Made by a program: the position numbers and the translations under genes
Part shown: piece by piece, positions 1,328-31,082 of the stretch
Numbering within the stretch: position 1 is the first letter of the stretch
Layout of the letters: every line of letters begins with the position of its first letter
NCBI GenBank assembly: GCA_028721415.1
Contig: JAQYIU010000050.1
Span: forward strand, 1 to 45,096
Source: Lachnospiraceae bacterium
GTDB lineage: Bacteria > Bacillota > Clostridia > Lachnospirales > Lachnospiraceae
DNA length: 45,096 bases
Direction of reading: 5' to 3'
The notes under the pieces: generated by a model
Told to the model about the DNA's origin: nothing
What the model saw: the letters and a program-made list of their open reading frames with translations, nothing else
The model's database searches: none

Positions 1328-1622
1328 CATGGTGCGCCTTGCGGCGCACGTTTCTAATGGATGAAAGTCCCTAATCCGCCCTAGTAGTGGGAAGGATATA
1401 GCCAAAACCAAGGGTGTCCATCGTGAGGTGGAATCTGAAGGAAGGTGGAGGCAAATCTCTGGTCTGACGAACAGAAATCACATCAGGCTATAGTTAAGGA
1501 TAAGGTTGCCATACAAACTGAAGTCCAATAACTACTCGGAATTAGCTATAGTAAATGTGGCAGATAGATGGAGAGAAAGAAACGTGTGGTACCAAGGGCA
1601 ATGTCACTAAGTTAAGATAAGT

Positions 1623-22139: not shown

Positions 22140-22157
22140 GGATATAATAAACGAATA

Positions 22158-22287
22158 GATTCTTCGGGGCAGGGTGAGATTCCCGACCGGCGGTATTCAT
22201 TCTCTGATGAGATGTAAGCCCGCGAGCCGTTGAGGCATGATCTGGTGTGATTCCGGAGCCGACAGTATAGTCTGGATGTGAGAAGAA
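22158..22287 (+). promoter_or_regulatory. FMN riboswitch (RFN element)
   Basis: All conserved blocks are present in order: ATTCTTCGGGGCAGGGTGA, ATTCCCGACCGGCGGTA, a variable P3 arm, AGCCCGCGAGCC, a variable arm, GATCTGGTGTGATTCCGGAG, CCGACAGT and the closing GATGTGAGAAGA. This is a complete RFN aptamer. It normally precedes rib biosynthesis genes or the riboflavin transporter ribU. Here the first gene downstream is an FGGY-family kinase, and no rib gene is seen in the window. Confidence 0.95.
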
Positions 22288-22384
22288 GGCATATATTTCT
22301 TTTTTTCTGATAGTATGTCAGAATAGATTATTTTAGAAGAAAGAGCTCGCAACTGAGAACTTTCTGATAATATTGATAATCTTT

Positions 22385-22419
22385 CCCTCCCGAATTGATT
22401 TGGGAGGGTTTCTTTTTTT
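22385..22419 (+). terminator. Terminator downstream of the FMN aptamer
   Basis: CCCTCCC-gaattgattt-GGGAGGG followed by TTTCTTTTTTT. It is the expected OFF structure of the FMN switch. It ends about 68 nt before the kinase ATG, with no obvious second promoter in between. Confidence 0.85.
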
Positions 22420-22486: not shown

Positions 22487-24031
22487 ATGAGTCAGTATTA
22501 TCTTGGATTTGATGCAGGTACTCAGAGTGTGAAGGTGGCTGTGTATGATGAGAATATGAATTGTGTCGTATCATCCAGTTCACCAACGACATTGACGTAT
22601 CCGGAACCGGGATGGGTGAATATGGATTGCGATGAATATTTGGCGCTGACCTTGAAGGGGATGAAAGATTGTTCGGATAAGATGAAGGAGAGTGGTCTGG
22701 ATCCGGCAGCGGTAAAGTCGATCATGGGAGATGGAATCATCTGTGGAATCTGTGGTGTGGATGTAGATGGCAATGCGATTACTCCTTATGTAAATTATCT
22801 GGATTCGAGAACGGCAGAAGATGTGGAACGGATCAACAGTTGGGATTTGGATATCTGGGGAAAAGAAACTGGTAATCCGGAAGCTAATTGTATGTTTCCG
22901 GCAATGTTTGCCCGCTGGTTTTTGAAGAATTCCCGTGAGTTTCAGGAGCGGGGTGTGAAATTTGTTCATGATGCCCCATACGTATTAGCTCATCTGGCAG
23001 GTCTGAAGGCGGATGAGATGTTTATTGATTGGGGTACGATGTCCGGATGGGGACTGGGATATAAAGTGGAAGAGAAATGTTGGTCCACAAAACAGCTGGA
23101 ACTTCTTGGCATTCCGGAATCCATGATGCCAAAGATTGTGAAACCATGGGATATTGTCGGACATCTGACTGATGAGATGGCTGAAAAGACAGGATTTCCG
23201 GCAGGTATTCCTATTTGTGCCGGTGCAGGTGACACTATGCAGTCCATGATCGGGAGCGGCAATATGAAACCGGGACAAGCGGTGGATGTGGCAGGAACCT
23301 GTTCCATGTTCTGTGTTTCTACCAGCGGAATTATCCCGGAATTGAGTCAGAAAGGTGCAGGACTCATCTTCAATAGCGGAACTTTACCGGATACTTATTT
23401 TTATTGGGGATATATTCGTACCGGCGGGCTGGCTCTTCGCTGGTATAAAGATAATATTTGCAGACAGGAGAAAGATGGAGATTATTACCAGGTATTAAGT
23501 GCACAGGCAGAAGAGATTCCTGCCGGTTCCAATGGAGTGTTGTTTCTGCCGTATTTAACAGGAGGAACCAATGATATTAAAGATGCCTCCGGCTGTTTTC
23601 TTAATATGACCATGGATACCAATCAGGCGGTGCTCTGGAGAGCCGTGCTGGAAGCTATTGGCTATGATTACATGGAGATTACCGAGTTATATCGATCTGC
23701 AGGAATTGATCTCAGCCGGATCACAATCACAGAAGGAGGAAGTCGCGACAAACTCTGGAACCAGATGAAAGCAGATATGTTGAACAGTCAGACGATAACT
23801 TTGGAGAATGCTGCCGGAGCGGTTATGACAAACTGTCTGTTTGGAGCCTACGCAGTAGGGGATATTATTGATCTGGAGAGTGCAATTAACGAGAATCTTC
23901 ATATTAAAATGATTTGTGAACCGGAGCCGCAAACGCATCAGTTTTATCAGGAACAATATGAGTTAAAAACCCGTCTTGTGAAGAAAGAACTGGTGAAGGC
24001 TTTTCAGACTTTAAAAATGATACGTCGATAA
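22487..24031 (+). CDS. FGGY-family carbohydrate kinase (xylulokinase/ribulokinase-like)
   Basis: A 514-residue sugar kinase of the FGGY/ASKHA fold. ATG 22487 has an AGGAGGAAG SD; the longer frame starts inside the riboswitch terminator. The N-terminal domain has the phosphate-binding LGFDAGTQSVKVAVYD, and PEPGWVNMDCDEY is typical of xylulokinase relatives. The inter-domain region has the conserved AGAGDTMQSMIGSG with the catalytic Asp. The C-terminal FGGY_C domain contains LPYLTGGTND, then a region VLWRAVLEAIGYDYMEI, and the adenine-binding TEGGSRDKLWNQMKADML. It phosphorylates a pentulose, polyol or similar sugar; which one cannot be told. It is a single-gene unit apparently controlled by the FMN riboswitch, which is unusual for a sugar kinase. 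Confidence 0.85.
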   Translation: MSQYYLGFDAGTQSVKVAVYDENMNCVVSSSSPTTLTYPEPGWVNMDCDEYLALTLKGMKDCSDKMKESGLDPAAVKSIMGDGIICGICGVDVDGNAITPYVNYLDSRTAEDVERINSWDLDIWGKETGNPEANCMFPAMFARWFLKNSREFQERGVKFVHDAPYVLAHLAGLKADEMFIDWGTMSGWGLGYKVEEKCWSTKQLELLGIPESMMPKIVKPWDIVGHLTDEMAEKTGFPAGIPICAGAGDTMQSMIGSGNMKPGQAVDVAGTCSMFCVSTSGIIPELSQKGAGLIFNSGTLPDTYFYWGYIRTGGLALRWYKDNICRQEKDGDYYQVLSAQAEEIPAGSNGVLFLPYLTGGTNDIKDASGCFLNMTMDTNQAVLWRAVLEAIGYDYMEITELYRSAGIDLSRITITEGGSRDKLWNQMKADMLNSQTITLENAAGAVMTNCLFGAYAVGDIIDLESAINENLHIKMICEPEPQTHQFYQEQYELKTRLVKKELVKAFQTLKMIRR

Positions 24032-24865: not shown

Positions 24866-24899
24866 AGGAAAACAGATTCATCTGTTTTCCTGTATTTTT
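24866..24899 (+). terminator. Terminator upstream of tRNA-Ser
   Basis: AGGAAAACAGA-ttca-TCTGTTTTCCT, a perfect 11-bp stem, then TGTATTTTT. It ends one base before the tRNA. Confidence 0.85.
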
Positions 24900-24987
24900 G
24901 GAGATGTACCCAAGTGGCTGAAGGGTCCGCACTCGAAATGCGGTAGGTCGGGTAACCGGCGCGAGGGTTCAAATCCCTCCATTTCCG
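24900..24987 (+). tRNA. tRNA-Ser (anticodon CGA)
   Basis: An 88-nt class II tRNA. Acceptor GGAGATG / CATTTCC (one G-U) with discriminator G. Anticodon stem CCGCA / TGCGG with loop CTCGAAA (CGA, reads UCG). Long variable arm GTAGGTCGGGTAACCGGCGC and T arm GAGGG-TTCAAAT-CCCTC. The CCA end is not encoded. Confidence 0.95.
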
Positions 24988-24996
24988 TATCAATCG

Positions 24997-25030
24997 GCGG
25001 CAGAGCTTCCAGGAGCTTTGCCGCTTTTTT
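24997..25030 (+). terminator. Terminator after tRNA-Ser
   Basis: GCGGCAGAGCT-tccagg-AGCTTTGCCGC (one mismatch) followed by TTTTTT. Confidence 0.8.
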
Positions 25031-25104
25031 CATCTCAGTGATGAATAAAAATCTCTCACTGAGACTCGCGATGTTAATTAATAAATTAGAAAGAGGTATT
25101 TTCG

Positions 25105-27810
25105 ATGGGGACTGCGTCAGAAAATAAACCAGATAATAGATTAAAAGAACAAGTATGTGTCGGTATTCTTGCCCATGTGGATGCGGGAAAGACAACATTA
25201 TCCGAAGGTATGATGTATCTTACCGGGAATCTGCGAAAAGCAGGAAGGGTAGATCATGGAGATGCCTTTTTGGATAATTTTGCTTTGGAGAGAGAAAGAG
25301 GTATCACGATTTTTTCGAAACAGGCCGTGTTTGAACTGGGAGAGAAACAGATTACTCTGTTGGATACGCCTGGTCATGTGGATTTTTCTGCTGAGATGGA
25401 GAGAACTCTGCAGGTACTGGACTATGCCATTTTAGTGATCAGCGGAGCTGATGGTATTCAAGGCCATACGGAAACCCTATGGAGATTATTGAAAGAGTAT
25501 CAGATTCCGGTGTTTTTGTTCATTAATAAGATGGATCAGGAAGGAACCGATCGGACTCATTTATTGGAGGAACTGAAAAAGAATCTGAGCGATGGTTGTA
25601 TTCCTTTTGATGACGGAACCAGTCAGGAGGACTGGATGGAAGAACTGGCAATGTGTGACGAACAGGTGCTGGAATATTATATGGAGCATGAAGCGGTTCC
25701 AGAGGAGGATATTTGTCGCCTGATTCAGGAGAGAAAAGTGTTTCCCTGTTATTTTGGGGCGGCACTTCGGATGGATGGGGTGGAAGCACTGTTACATGGA
25801 TTGGAGACTTATCTGAAGATTCCGGAATATCCGGAAGAGTTTGGCGCAAAAGTGTTTAAGATATCTAGAGATGAACAGGGGAATCGTCTCACACATCTTA
25901 AGGTGACCGGAGGGAAACTGAAAGTGAAGATGCCGCTGTTTCAGGGAGAAAAAGCAGATCAGGTAAGGATTTATTCCGGTTCGAAATATCAGCTTAGGGA
26001 AGTAGTTCTTCCCGGGACAATCTGTGCGGTTACCGGTTTATCGGAAACCTTTGCCGGGCAGGGACTGGGAATCGAAACCAGGCAGGCTGAGCCGAAGCTG
26101 GAACCGGTACTTACCTGTCAGATGATTCTGCCGAAGGGGGTGGATGTGACGAAAACCCTCAGGGAATTACGACAGCTGGAAGAGGAAGATCCCTTGCTTC
26201 ACCTCGTATGGAACAGCCAGCTGGGAGAAATTCACGTTCAGCTTATGGGAGAAGTGCAGACTGAGATTTTGAAAAGTCTTATTGAAGAGCGTTTTCATTT
26301 GCAGGTAGAATTTGGCCCGGGCAACATTATGTATAAAGAAACAATTCGGAATACAGTATCCGGCGTAGGGCATTATGAACCTCTTCGCCATTATGCGGAA
26401 GTGCATCTTCGGCTGGAACCGGGAGAACCTGGCAGCGGTCTTGTCTTTACTTCTGAATGCAGTGAAGATGTGTTGGATAAAAACTGGCAGAGGCTGATTC
26501 TCACTCATTTGAAGGAAAAAGAACATGTGGGAGTTCTGGCTGGGATGCCAATCACGGACGTGAAGATCACGCTGACAGCTGGGCGGGCTCACTTGAAGCA
26601 TACAGAAGGCGGGGATTTTCGTCAGGCCACATATCGGGCGGTGCGTCAGGGATTAAAAAATGCCGAGTCGATCTTGTTGGAGCCGTGGTATGAATTTCGT
26701 CTTGAAGTTCCAGCAGAGCAAATAGGTCGCGGAATGTCAGATATCCAGAAAATGAGTGGTTCTTTTGAGGCACCGGAATTAATGGAGGATGGCAGTGCGG
26801 TGCTAAAGGGCAGTGCACCGGTGTCAGAAATGAAAGATTATCAGAAAGAAGTCTGGTCTTATACGGGGGGACATGGCAAATTATTCCTGCAAATGAAAGG
26901 ATATGAACCTTGTCATAATGAAGAAGAAGTGTTGGAGAATATCGGCTACGATGCGGAGGCAGATCTGGATAATCCCCCGGGATCCATTTTCTGTTCTCAC
27001 GGAGCAGGATTTTATGTTCCGTGGGATGAAGTACCGGATTATATGCATATCAAAGAAGAAAAAGTTTCTGATGCAGTGAAGGCTGATCCGACAGAAGTTC
27101 TGGAAGATGCTGGGAGAAGGTATGCAGCCTCTTATGCAGAAGATAAGGAACTGGAAGCGATTTTCCTGCGAGAATTTGGCTCCAAAAAACAGCAGGAAGA
27201 CAGATACAGCGGTTATCGAAAGAAATCGGTTGGAGTATCTTCGACCCCTTATCGAAGTCCGTCGACAAAAAGGAAGAGTACGAAAAATTATTTACTGGTT
27301 GATGGATATAATATTATATTTGCCTGGGATTTTCTGAAAGAACTGGCGGATACGAATCTGGATGCGGCGAGAAACAAACTGATGGATATTCTATGTAACT
27401 ATCAGGGATTTGTTGGTTGCACGCTCATTGTGGTGTTTGATGCCTACAAAGTAAAAGGGAATACCAGAGAGATATATCGATACCATAATATTCATGTTGT
27501 CTATACTAAAGAGGCGGAGACAGCAGATCAATATATTGAAAAAACAACCCATGAGCTGGGACGTAAATATAACGTGACGGTGGCGACGTCCGATGGACTT
27601 GAGCAGGTCATCGTCATGGGTCAGGGGGCGACTCGCTGGTCTGCCAGAGATTTTTATGAGGAAGTCGAGCGGGTGAATCAGGAAATCAGTCGGATTAATG
27701 AAGAAAAGAAGATGAAAGGACAGAATTATCTGTTTGATCATATGGAAGAAGAAATGGCTGATTTTGTCGAGAAGGTACGGCTTGGAAAAGCCACCTTCGA
27801 CCAATCTTGA
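25105..27810 (+). CDS. TetM-like ribosomal GTPase fused to a YacP/Rae1-type NYN nuclease
   Basis: A 901-residue fusion. Residues about 1-640 are an EF-G-like GTPase of the ribosomal protection (TetM/TetO/TetW) group: G1 AHVDAGKT 23-30, G2 RERGIT 63-68, G3 DTPGH 87-91, G4 NKMD 141-144. Domains II to V follow. A basic, Ser-rich linker (about 690-727) leads to a C-terminal NYN/PIN-like domain (about 729-870). Its candidate metal ligands are D733 (VDGYN), D779 (VVFDAYK), D808 (ETADQYIE) and D830 (TSDGLEQ), the pattern of YacP/Rae1, a ribosome-associated endoribonuclease. A helical tail ends the protein. The likely job is ribosome rescue or A-site mRNA cleavage rather than drug resistance; this is inference. 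Start ATG has AAGAGG upstream. Monocistronic between tRNA-Ser and the Fe-S operon. Confidence 0.88.
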   Translation: MGTASENKPDNRLKEQVCVGILAHVDAGKTTLSEGMMYLTGNLRKAGRVDHGDAFLDNFALERERGITIFSKQAVFELGEKQITLLDTPGHVDFSAEMERTLQVLDYAILVISGADGIQGHTETLWRLLKEYQIPVFLFINKMDQEGTDRTHLLEELKKNLSDGCIPFDDGTSQEDWMEELAMCDEQVLEYYMEHEAVPEEDICRLIQERKVFPCYFGAALRMDGVEALLHGLETYLKIPEYPEEFGAKVFKISRDEQGNRLTHLKVTGGKLKVKMPLFQGEKADQVRIYSGSKYQLREVVLPGTICAVTGLSETFAGQGLGIETRQAEPKLEPVLTCQMILPKGVDVTKTLRELRQLEEEDPLLHLVWNSQLGEIHVQLMGEVQTEILKSLIEERFHLQVEFGPGNIMYKETIRNTVSGVGHYEPLRHYAEVHLRLEPGEPGSGLVFTSECSEDVLDKNWQRLILTHLKEKEHVGVLAGMPITDVKITLTAGRAHLKHTEGGDFRQATYRAVRQGLKNAESILLEPWYEFRLEVPAEQIGRGMSDIQKMSGSFEAPELMEDGSAVLKGSAPVSEMKDYQKEVWSYTGGHGKLFLQMKGYEPCHNEEEVLENIGYDAEADLDNPPGSIFCSHGAGFYVPWDEVPDYMHIKEEKVSDAVKADPTEVLEDAGRRYAASYAEDKELEAIFLREFGSKKQQEDRYSGYRKKSVGVSSTPYRSPSTKRKSTKNYLLVDGYNIIFAWDFLKELADTNLDAARNKLMDILCNYQGFVGCTLIVVFDAYKVKGNTREIYRYHNIHVVYTKEAETADQYIEKTTHELGRKYNVTVATSDGLEQVIVMGQGATRWSARDFYEEVERVNQEISRINEEKKMKGQNYLFDHMEEEMADFVEKVRLGKATFDQS

Positions 27811-27835
27811 CTTTTTTTATATGGTATGTTATATA
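27807..27835 (+). promoter_or_regulatory. Promoter of the SufC-SufB-like operon
   Basis: TTGACT (27807-27812) overlaps the stop codon of the GTPase-nuclease gene; TATATA (27830-27835) follows after 17 bp. Confidence 0.7.
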
Positions 27836-27873
27836 TAAAATTTGGATGTGACTATTATAATGAGGAGAATACT

Positions 27874-28584
27874 ATGCTTGAATTAAAAAATATCAGCTAT
27901 GTAGTTGATGGAAATAAAGAAATATTAAAAGATATCAATTTATCTTTTGATGATAAGTTTGTGGCGATTACAGGCCCAAACGGAAGCGGTAAATCAACTC
28001 TCGCCAAAATCATTGCGGGAATCATTCAGCCGACTTCCGGACAGATTTTACTGGATGGAGAAGATATTACAAATTTGAACATCACAGAGAGAGCAAAGAA
28101 AGGAATCAGCTATGCTTTCCAGCAGCCGGTACATTTTAAAGGATTGAAAGTAAAAGATCTGATTTCCGTAGCATCCGGCAAGACCATGACGGTAAAAGAA
28201 ATCTGTGATGTGCTTTCCGAGGTTGGCTTATGTGCGAGAGATTACGTGAATCGTGAGCTGAACGGAAGTCTGTCTGGCGGCGAATTGAAACGAATTGAGA
28301 TTGCCATGATCCGTGCCAGAGCCACGAAACTATCCGTATTTGATGAACCGGAGGCAGGAATTGATCTCTGGAGTTTTAACAGTCTGATTCATGTGTTTGA
28401 GGAACTTCATGAAAAGACAGACGGAACAATCCTCATCATTTCTCACCAGGAGAGAATCCTTGAAATTGCAGATAAGATCATTGTTATTAATGATGGACAT
28501 GTTGAGAAAGAGGGAGACGGTTCTGATGTGATTCCGGGTCTTATTTACAAAGCTGCTGCCTGTCACAAGGTTAGCCAGAATTAG
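27874..28584 (+). CDS. sufC: SufC-like Fe-S assembly ATPase (SmsC type)
   Basis: A 236-residue ABC-type ATPase. Walker A is GPNGSGKST, Q-loop FQQPVHFKGLK, signature SGGELKRIEIAMI, Walker B VFDEPEAGID, and H-switch IISHQERIL. The FDEPEAGIDLWSF sequence is typical of SufC rather than transport ATPases. It powers conformational change of its SufB-like partner during Fe-S cluster assembly. ATG 27874 with GAGGAGA upstream; the earlier in-frame ATG at 27826 lies in the promoter. The partner gene follows after 9 bp. No SufS, SufU, SufD or SufA gene is nearby, which fits the two-gene SMS (SUF-like minimal) arrangement known from anaerobes. Confidence 0.88.
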   Translation: MLELKNISYVVDGNKEILKDINLSFDDKFVAITGPNGSGKSTLAKIIAGIIQPTSGQILLDGEDITNLNITERAKKGISYAFQQPVHFKGLKVKDLISVASGKTMTVKEICDVLSEVGLCARDYVNRELNGSLSGGELKRIEIAMIRARATKLSVFDEPEAGIDLWSFNSLIHVFEELHEKTDGTILIISHQERILEIADKIIVINDGHVEKEGDGSDVIPGLIYKAAACHKVSQN

Positions 28585-28593
28585 AAACAGAGG

Positions 28594-29523
28594 ATGGATA
28601 AAAAGATGGATTTAATACAAAAAGAATTACTGGAACAGGTGGCAGATCTTCACGAGGTTCCTGCCGGAGCCTATAATATCCGTACCAATGGATCTGCAGC
28701 CGCAAGAAATACAACAGCGAATATCGACATTGTATCAAAAGAAGATAAAGACGGGATTGACATTATTATTAAACCGGGTACCAAAAAAGAGAGTGTCCAT
28801 ATCCCTGTTGTTTTGAGTCAGAGTGGTATGACCGAAATGGTTTATAATGATTTCTTTATTGGAGATGATTGCGATGTGACGATTATCGCCGGCTGCGGTA
28901 TTCACAACAGCGGTGATGACCTGTCAAAACATGATGGACTTCATTCATTTTATGTTGGAAAGAATTCCAAAGTGCGTTATGTGGAGAAACATTATGGCAG
29001 CGGCGATGGAAAAGGCGGCAGAGTGATGAATCCGGAGACAGCAATTCATCTGGATGAAAATGCATATTTTTATATGGATACCGTTCAGATACGTGGAATT
29101 GACAGTACTAACCGTATTACGACTGCAGATTTGAAAGAAGGTGCAAAACTGGAGATTTCAGAGAAATTAATGACTCATGGGGAACAGAAAGCAACCACTG
29201 TATTTTCTGTGGATCTGAACGGAGCAGGCAGCAGTGCCAATGTCATTTCACGTTCTGTGGCAAGAGGAGAGTCAGTTCAGGATTTCCGGGCGAAAATCAG
29301 TGGAAATGCAGCTTGTGCAGGACACAGCGAATGTGATGCGATCATCATGGATCAGGCGAGAGTCAGTGCAACACCGGAATTGGAGGCCAATGATATCGAT
29401 GCGGAACTGATTCACGAGGCAGCAATCGGCAAGATTGCCGGAGAACAGCTCATTAAACTTATGACGCTCGGTTTAACTGAGGCAGAAGCAGAAGAGATGA
29501 TTATTTCCGGCTTTCTTAAATAA
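28594..29523 (+). CDS. SufB/SufD-like Fe-S scaffold (SmsB type)
   Basis: A 309-residue SufBD-core protein, much shorter than canonical SufB (about 470). The right-handed beta-helix core is recognisable: VVLSQSGMTEMVYNDFFIG, AHIDENAYF-like strands, RSVARGESVQDFRAKISG, GHSECDAIIMDQ. The C-terminal ATPase-docking region is DIDAELIHEAAIGKIAG followed by EEMIISGFLK. Its extended N-terminal domain is missing, as in the minimal SmsB proteins. It is expected to build Fe-S clusters on a SufC2B2-like complex. It follows sufC by 9 bp and is followed by a CsoR-family gene 36 bp later. Sulfur donor not encoded here. Confidence 0.85.
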   Translation: MDKKMDLIQKELLEQVADLHEVPAGAYNIRTNGSAAARNTTANIDIVSKEDKDGIDIIIKPGTKKESVHIPVVLSQSGMTEMVYNDFFIGDDCDVTIIAGCGIHNSGDDLSKHDGLHSFYVGKNSKVRYVEKHYGSGDGKGGRVMNPETAIHLDENAYFYMDTVQIRGIDSTNRITTADLKEGAKLEISEKLMTHGEQKATTVFSVDLNGAGSSANVISRSVARGESVQDFRAKISGNAACAGHSECDAIIMDQARVSATPELEANDIDAELIHEAAIGKIAGEQLIKLMTLGLTEAEAEEMIISGFLK

Positions 29524-30170: not shown

Positions 30171-31082
30171 TTAATCTATAATCTCTCCGGAGATGATCCA
30201 TGGAGCCGGTTTGGCTTCAAAAACATTTTTCCGGTTCAGTTTGGACATGGCAATCTGAATAACCTCTGTGCGTGTAATATGATATTTCTCGAATACAGCA
30301 AGAATGTTGGATAAAATATCCAGTTCAAGAGTGTAGACAACAAATTTCATCTGTGGGTTTATTTTCAGCAGATTCTGCACTTCTTCTTCAAAACGTTCTG
30401 TAGCAACAATGAAAGAAAGGGATGGTACCGGCAGAGATTTCATGGAATTTCGGCTGGTATCGCTCACAATGCTTACGTTGGTAAGTCCGAACTTGGTGAT
30501 ATTTTCTTCCATGGAAAAACGGTCATGTTTATTATATTCTACGGCAATGATCTCGCCATCGTTGGCGATCATGGCAGACTCTACAGCGATACTTTCTCCA
30601 CTGATGATACAGATGGTATCCTGATCGTCAAGATGCAGCTTGTTAACAATGATAGAGCGGATTTCGCTGGCAACATAACGGACAGAACCCTGAGAAAAAG
30701 TATCGTTCTGCAAGCCGATCTTATAAGAACTGCGGGCATTTGGATTGAAAATTAGCATGACAGAAGGCTCTGTGATATCTACGTTGATCATCTCAGATAA
30801 CTTGCAAATGGAGACATTGCCTTCCGGTTCCAGACCGGTTTTGAACCAGATATCACATTCGCCAAGACCGTAATCCCAAAGATTAAAAAAGAAATTCGGA
30901 TCACCGGCATCGGCAAAAACAAGGACTCTTTTGTGGGTTTCAATCGTAGGAATCAGATTCTTTTTCTTTTGGCTGATGTCGATCAGCTTGATTTTCTCAA
31001 TATCGAGACCGGCTTTTTTTGAAAAATACTGGAGCCAGGATAAAATCTGTGTGTTTGTGAAGGAAGATGTGTTGTTATCCAT
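30171..31082 (-). CDS. Degenerate CbiE/CbiT-like (precorrin methylase/decarboxylase) protein
   Basis: A 303-residue protein whose layout follows cobalamin-pathway CbiE-CbiT (CobL) fusions. RVLVFADAGDPNFFF resembles the CbiE TSGDP region, followed by a SEMINVDITEPSVMLIFNP stretch. A CbiT-like methyltransferase part begins near residue 125 (QNDTFSQGSVRYVASEIRSI). The SAM-binding glycine motif (DIGAGTGS in CbiT) is replaced by IISGESIA. Later landmarks remain: IAVEYNKHDRFSMEENITKF, VVYTLELDI, and a C-terminal AKPAPWIISGEI. It therefore looks like a non-catalytic descendant. It stands alone, with no cobalamin genes in the window, and is divergent from the Rrf2 gene. Function unknown. Confidence 0.6.
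   Translation of the reverse strand: MDNNTSSFTNTQILSWLQYFSKKAGLDIEKIKLIDISQKKKNLIPTIETHKRVLVFADAGDPNFFFNLWDYGLGECDIWFKTGLEPEGNVSICKLSEMINVDITEPSVMLIFNPNARSSYKIGLQNDTFSQGSVRYVASEIRSIIVNKLHLDDQDTICIISGESIAVESAMIANDGEIIAVEYNKHDRFSMEENITKFGLTNVSIVSDTSRNSMKSLPVPSLSFIVATERFEEEVQNLLKINPQMKFVVYTLELDILSNILAVFEKYHITRTEVIQIAMSKLNRKNVFEAKPAPWIISGEIID

Follow-up and report, generated by a model that had tools for sequence, protein, structure and literature searches.

Why is Rae1/YacP, a nuclease usually found as a small standalone protein, joined in some clostridia to a GTPase that resembles a tetracycline resistance determinant? The question is raised by a gene in contig JAQYIU010000050.1 (assembly GCA_028721415.1) from a Lachnospiraceae bacterium, analyzed over its 45,096 nucleotides (the window), in which a single open reading frame (ORF) on the forward strand, 25105..27810, runs from an ATG start to encode a 901-amino-acid (aa) protein carrying both parts. 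On balance we favor the reading that this protein is the lineage's Rae1 orthologue, attached to the C terminus of a dedicated EF-G-family GTPase, and that it serves in quality control of mRNA or in stalling-based regulation. To judge by sequence, its GTPase is complete, its Rae1 domain is intact, and the linker joining them is flexible; the protein is encoded by a family-wide, single-copy gene whose appearance is accompanied by an emptied operon slot.

Domain layout and the nuclease residues

A first-pass annotation of the DNA had proposed a Rae1-type nuclease on a ribosomal-type GTPase, and domain searches bore this out. A complete EF-G/TetM-like GTPase (residues 1-648) is followed by an ~80-residue linker and then by an NYN nuclease domain of the Rae1/YacP type (residues 729-892), so that GTPase and nuclease are fused in one ORF. 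Pfam GTP_EFTU matched residues 16-237 (E 5.5e-50), followed in the GTPase half by EF-G_D2 (246-317), EFG_III (333-404), EFG_IV (407-520), and EFG_C (524-606), and NYN_YacP matched residues 730-892 (E 8.1e-55; 185.8 bits against a curated cutoff of 24.6). The five EF-G-like domains are also a feature of Tet ribosomal protection proteins, and in a structure comparison TetM aligned with model residues 14-645; the structural matches reach model residue ~645, and the NYN part was compared by sequence rather than by fold. The same domain order is found in one ORF in 80/80 named loci (the best 80 of 596 confirmed fusion loci) and in 168 of 180 YacP-positive genomes of the family, and the fusion is therefore not an assembly artifact.

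Conservation was read from 109 full-length fused proteins, namely, the window protein, 28 from the same family, and 80 from the named loci. The four aspartates that the first-pass annotation had named as metal binding, D733, D779, D808, and D830, lie at the positions given and align with motifs of the Bacillus subtilis YacP structure (5mq9, E 4e-29; 5mq8, E 8.1e-29), and these residues, like Y735, N736, T828, S829, and Q834, are each present in 109/109 proteins. Loss of nuclease residues from most orthologues, which would have spoken against the annotation, was looked for and not found. The same four columns are kept in 25/25 standalone YacP copies, active-site columns agree between 81 fused and 25 standalone NYN domains, and low-scoring fused members, read by eye, keep the aspartates wherever the stretch is covered. 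In same-genus pairs, where synonymous sites are near saturation and nonsynonymous divergence (pN) was used in place of dN/dS, the nuclease core (729-865) has a lower pN than the GTPase in 6/6 pairs (0.064-0.144 versus 0.071-0.204); the linker diverges at 0.24-0.42, and the nuclease tail (866-901) is looser at 0.072-0.403. By curated score and catalytic acidic residues alike, the domain is predicted to be a member of the Rae1/YacP family. It shares with the B. subtilis protein (5mq8, 5mq9) the NYN domain, the four acidic residues, and the near-invariant active-site columns, but the usual form is standalone and ~170 aa long (chains of 181 residues in the B. subtilis structures), whereas here it is the C-terminal domain of a 901-aa fusion.

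A second difference from standalone Rae1 concerns two arginines that are relaxed in many fused relatives of the window protein. At R844, aligned with B. subtilis R118, arginine is found in 55/81 fused domains versus 25/25 standalone ones, and at R892, aligned with R165, it is found in 35/81 fused domains (27 have gaps) versus 24/25. R166P, adjoining R165, was recovered among B. subtilis suppressors that behaved as Rae1 loss of function, according to the relevant passages of PMC6613710. One reading is that the docking surface of Rae1 may have become less important once a GTPase delivered the nuclease to the ribosome.

Distribution of the fusion and the emptied operon slot

The genome from which the window comes has one NYN_YacP domain in total, the fused one. 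Among 200 genomes of the family, 180 were NYN_YacP positive, comprising 168 with the fusion (a contig end or frame break interrupts some copies), 10 with a standalone gene, and 2 (G095 and G128) left unassigned at contig ends; these labels rest on open-frame length, and that of standalone genome G016, near a contig end, is less sure. The survey across Clostridia that the first-pass annotation had suggested found the fusion in 101 of 291 class genomes, with 5 more genomes in which the copy is interrupted by a contig end or frame break. A further 84 were scored as standalone, meaning YacP positive without a fused GTPase (27 of these frames, checked separately, are 169-217 long, that of G445 falling under the family cutoff), and 17 genomes of the class sample carry an unfused GTPase of the same kind. 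The fusion protein was matched in 21/23 same-genus genomes, in some over partial length, and a phylum sample of 199 genomes had a fusion-length gene in 12, including the window's own genome, and an unfused gene in 1. Within the best 80 of 596 loci, named records include Anaerostipes, Mediterraneibacter, Anaerovorax, Desulfosporosinus, and Intestinimonas, and the closest by identity are labeled Eubacterium, Herbinix, Robinsoniella, and Lachnospiraceae. Two YacP matches occurred in five family genomes: in G130 they are one frame in two pieces, in G173 and G076 they are fragments at contig edges, and in G039 and G154 they may represent two copies or a cut duplicate. G331, in the class sample, carries two fused genes; apparent second copies in G334, G399, and G439 were dismissed, the extra matches (~21 bits) lying under the cutoff.

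The gene order around standalone yacP suggests where the fused domain came from. With RlmB, CysS, and SigH identified by NCBIfam, rlmB lies directly 5' of yacP in 15 of the 19 standalone loci read, and sigH lies directly 3' in 11 of those 15; yacP is away from rlmB in G059, G440, G020, and G459. A short ORF 5' of rlmB, which we take to be mrnB, has no NCBIfam match. Among 11 fused genomes examined, yacP follows rlmB in none: rlmB is followed directly by sigH in 7, and by neither yacP nor sigH in 4, one of them the window's genome. In G191 (locus L264), rlmB runs up to 2226 and sigH begins at 2229. Most simply, the fused domain would be the old Rae1, moved out of its operon. Because the operon slot of relatives has been emptied, the fused copy, single in its genome and replacing the operon copy, appears to be orthologous to Rae1. 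Many standalone copies within the family lie in the ancestral operon and are hence unlikely to be later splits.

The ancestral neighbors, a 23S methylase and the short ORF, would suit a maturation factor whose GTPase docks on ribosomal particles while the NYN domain trims rRNA or tRNA, and an RNA-maturation role had been proposed for YacP (Anantharaman and Aravind 2006, as cited in a passage of Atkinson 2015, PMC4342817). We regard this as very improbable, given that later work, in the passages concerned (PMC6613710, PMC12320835), presents B. subtilis Rae1 as a nuclease acting on mRNA in the A site and that the fused gene has left the rlmB operon and keeps no widely conserved neighbor. A functional link through gene neighbors was sought and set aside, no neighbor family occurring in more than 15/109 fusion loci; the commonest, in 15/109, is that of the window's ATP-binding cassette (ABC)-type ATPase, a large superfamily in which the label of the other members is presumptive. 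Around 20 unfused GTPase genes, no neighbor was common to more than 4 loci.

The GTPase, its relatives, and the linker

In the G domain, K29, T30, E62, R65, T68, D87, G90, H91, N141, K142, and D144 are kept in 109/109 fused proteins, and domain IV is the best conserved part of the fusion protein (mean identity 0.75 over 405-522). The first-pass label of a TetM-like GTPase holds in that the protein is of ribosomal type and has the same domain order, but it is loose, the fusion belonging to a clade separate from Tet. In a GTPase tree built by a quick search without bootstrap, fused (30), unfused (21), and Tet-like (13) rows each fall on one side of a branch, with Shimodaira-Hasegawa-like approximate likelihood ratio (SH-aLRT) support of 99, 97, and 95, respectively. 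The domain IV tip, which occupies the place of Tet(M) YSPVSTPADF, is of the type HTxGGDF in 29/30 fused and 21/21 unfused rows and in 0/13 Tet-like rows. The 80 named loci were picked with the patterns GH[FY]EPLRH and KHTEGGDF, and the tip motif was thus selected for there; the 28 same-family proteins were picked as full-length proteins through the NYN domain, and tip counts are unbiased among them. Window residue K498 aligns with TetM P509, which a passage of PMC8161019 locates in the drug site; this column holds K in 28 of 30 fused proteins (the other two have Q and R, respectively) and in 21/21 unfused ones, and P in 7/13 Tet-like rows.

These observations bear on the proposal that the protein is a ribosomal protection protein of the tetracycline type whose added ribonuclease (RNase) aids resistance. 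The GTPase-NYN architecture itself has already been published: Atkinson 2015 (PMC4342817), in the part concerned, describes Tet proteins with a YacP-like NYN domain in ten clostridial species and suggests that resistance could work through an RNase. A Tet-like GTPase followed by a YacP-like NYN domain in clostridia is the architecture seen here too, the comparison being one of described domain layouts; that work files the fusion under Tet, whereas we find a non-Tet clade, a family-wide gene, and a replacement of standalone Rae1. In favor of a Tet-type protein, the domain order is that of TetM/TetO, the top PDB sequence match of the GTPase is TetO (258.7 bits), and the top NCBIfam score is that of tet_protect; however, the NCBIfam Tet cutoffs shown were all missed (for example, NF012153, tet_protect, 423.6 versus 775, and NF033148, 282.2 versus 1100), and G247, G350, and G478 carry genes with the YSPVSTPADF loop of Tet(M) alongside the fusion. 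The fusion GTPase shares domains I-V and fold with Tet(M)/Tet(O) (3j9y, 4v6v) but differs from them in its domain IV tip and FCSHGAGF stretch and in carrying a linker and a nuclease, and the distribution of the single-copy gene is not that of an acquired one. We reject plain tetracycline resistance on the cutoffs, tip residues, clade, and distribution, and a resistance protein aided by its RNase strikes us as quite improbable. The non-Tet tip, the separate clade, and the coexisting Tet genes argue instead for a core translation factor; the first-pass annotation had likewise preferred translation quality control or an antibiotic response to plain tetracycline resistance. The protein is likewise distinct from EF-G and EF-G2, with which it shares domain order and G motifs: it misses their NCBIfam cutoffs (for TIGR00484, 287.7 versus 659.4), and its tip is unlike theirs, differing also from that of an EF-G-like gene of the same genome (L004, so labeled from its tip). 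Further Tet-like GTPases (L096, L230, L231, L232, L235, and L236), with domain IV tips -HTHPLDF, -HSNPGDF, or -HTKAPDF, fall on the Tet side of the tree, apart from Tet(M)-loop rows.

The unfused sister GTPases of Clostridia, for which we found no name, are 640-724 aa long (mostly ~650) and 42-50% identical to the fused GTPase. They share its C-terminal module (FCSHGAGF) and domain IV tip, lack the linker and nuclease, and stop 1-13 residues past window residue 648 (6 or fewer in 20/21). Some occur in genomes without a YacP match (L115, L116, L117, L118, and L119, and genomes G381 and G434, the last with the gene in two pieces), where they would be GTPases of ribosomal kind with no known partner.

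The linker, measured between the residues aligned to H648 and Y729, is 67-155 long (median 86) in the 109 proteins. Its mean identity over 649-728 is 0.23, and 655-678 and 691-723 are under 50 in predicted local distance difference test (pLDDT) score, but a motif at 680-692, within a helix predicted at low confidence (677-691), of the type ELxxIFxRTYG recurs. The stricter of two patterns was matched in 98/119 rows, whereas 200 shuffles gave 0.14 matching rows on average and never more than 2; its misses include wrongly cut linkers (e.g., L045, L145, and L199). The other pattern was matched in 71/119, the window included. The motif was absent from the 11 standalone YacP proteins read, and unfused GTPases end before its position.

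It is conceivable, if rather unlikely, that the two halves are tethered but uncoupled, the GTPase having its own ribosomal task, such as resetting stalled or drug-bound ribosomes, and the nuclease being an ordinary Rae1 that the fusion merely holds near ribosomes or at equal dose, cutting independently of GTP hydrolysis. The long flexible linker and the clade and tip motif common to fused and unfused GTPases would fit such an arrangement, as would the 74/84 standalone-YacP class genomes without a GTPase match (at E 1e-60). It sits less well with the helix motif recurring in an otherwise variable linker, with the frequent loss in fusions of the C-terminal arginine conserved in standalone Rae1, and with the co-occurrence of the separate genes in the family, where the GTPase is present in 7/11 standalone-YacP genomes (the 10 family genomes plus G440, added by hand) versus 0/20 YacP-less genomes (P = 1.3e-4, relatedness not corrected).

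Several results weigh against a coupled, Rae1-replacing factor. Of the 17 class-sample genomes with the unfused GTPase, 7 have no YacP match, which argues also for uncoupled action, since the GTPase can evidently act without Rae1, and in that sample the separate YacP and GTPase genes show no significant co-occurrence (10, 7, 74, 94; P = 0.31). At the thresholds used, 20/200 family genomes have neither part, and the factor is therefore dispensable. The window copy retains R844 and R892, the relaxed arginines being a feature of its relatives only, and, present twice in the 119 rows, it fails the stricter linker pattern by one residue. Finally, the approximately unbiased (AU) test mildly rejects a single clade of fused NYN domains (p-AU 0.030), on an NYN tree made without rows L120, L123, L244, L065, L081, and L084 of an earlier one. 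This result concerns the number of fusion events: a single origin is supported by the GTPase tree and not by the NYN tree, and several events may have occurred.

Surroundings of the gene and a model for its action

The features of the gene and its surroundings are collected in Table 1. The terminator-like hairpin between tRNA-Ser and the fusion gene suggests a separate transcript for the latter, and Rfam, at gathering scores, gave no regulatory RNA 5' of the fusion gene besides the tRNA. The SufC/SufB-like pair 3' of the gene, both members below NCBIfam cutoffs, recurs there in 4/6 same-genus loci (L347, L348, L351, and L352) and is not family-wide. The flavin mononucleotide (FMN) riboswitch lies directly 5' of a sugar kinase gene rather than a recognized riboflavin gene, and a match is found upstream of the orthologous kinase in 6/6 same-genus loci (L347-L352), chosen for having riboswitch and fusion on one contig. 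The 303-aa protein, without a Pfam match at E 0.001, has counterparts at 85-87% identity in 3/6 same-genus loci.

Table 1. Features of the fusion gene and other features of the window
Feature	Positions	Strand	Basis or remark
Whole fusion gene, 901 aa	25105..27810	+	
Likely ribosome binding site aaagaggt, 5' of ATG 25105	25090..25097	+	Inference
GTPase (G) domain, residues 16-237	25150..25815	+	Pfam
EF-G domains II and III, residues 246-404	25840..26316	+	Pfam
EF-G domain IV, residues 407-520	26323..26664	+	Pfam
Domain IV tip H496-x-K498-H-T-E-G-G-D-F505	26590..26619	+	
EF-G domain V, residues 524-606	26674..26922	+	Pfam
C-terminal GTPase module, residues 607-648, with FCSHGAGF motif	26923..27048	+	
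Variable linker, residues 649-728	27049..27288	+	
Recurring linker motif DKELEAIFLREFG, residues 680-692	27142..27180	+	
NYN_YacP/Rae1-type nuclease domain, residues 730-892	27292..27780	+	
D733, predicted catalytic aspartate	27301..27303	+	109/109
D779	27439..27441	+	109/109
D808	27526..27528	+	109/109
D830	27592..27594	+	109/109
Terminator-like hairpin with T-run, 3' of tRNA-Ser (24899-24988) and 5' of fusion gene	24996..25025	+	Function inferred
Group II intron D1-D4-3 match	1417..1587	+	148.5 bits
FMN riboswitch	22156..22291	+	110 bits
Terminator-like hairpin	22385..22408		
FGGY-family sugar kinase gene	22487..24031	+	
SufC-like ATPase and SufB/SufD-like protein	27826..29523	+	
303-aa protein	30171..31082	-	

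How might the two halves work together? According to a passage of PMC8161019, Tet proteins overlap the A site, as does EF-G, and Rae1 is described as cutting mRNA there. The GTPase would bind ribosomes whose A site is vacant, whether stalled or paused, and insert domain IV, which would be let go upon GTP hydrolysis; the nuclease, kept near by the ~80-residue linker, would then occupy the same A site and cut the mRNA, exposing the message to decay and the ribosome to rescue. Such a service would lie in the quality control of mRNA or in regulation through stalling. Since domain IV and Rae1 are taken to be unable to share the A site, we propose a sequential hand-over, which seems likelier than simultaneous action. 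Both parts are present; ribosome binding, recognition of stalled ribosomes, and GTP-coupled cutting by the fusion are what we infer. A self-contained stall sensor and mRNA cutter, in which a GTPase samples the empty A site and hydrolysis licenses the tethered Rae1 to replace it, is thus a tentative proposal that may well prove wrong in its coupling.

In the literature searched with the terms used, PMC4342817 was the one paper found to describe the fusion, and none was found that links it to Rae1 or tests it. New here are the family-wide single-copy distribution, the emptied operon slot, and the unfused sister with its junction, together with a domain IV tip unlike that of Tet, a recurring motif in the linker, and the relaxation of two Rae1 arginines. 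Because GTPase and nuclease can be inactivated separately in one protein, the fusion could serve as an experimental tool, and Rae1 tied to a ribosome-entering GTPase in many clostridial genera offers a testable clue to how Rae1 finds the right ribosomes. If the proposal is correct, genes resembling tetracycline resistance determinants would shift to translation quality control, with consequences for resistome annotation, and a GTP-clocked mRNA quality-control factor would have taken the place of freely diffusing Rae1 across much of the Clostridia.
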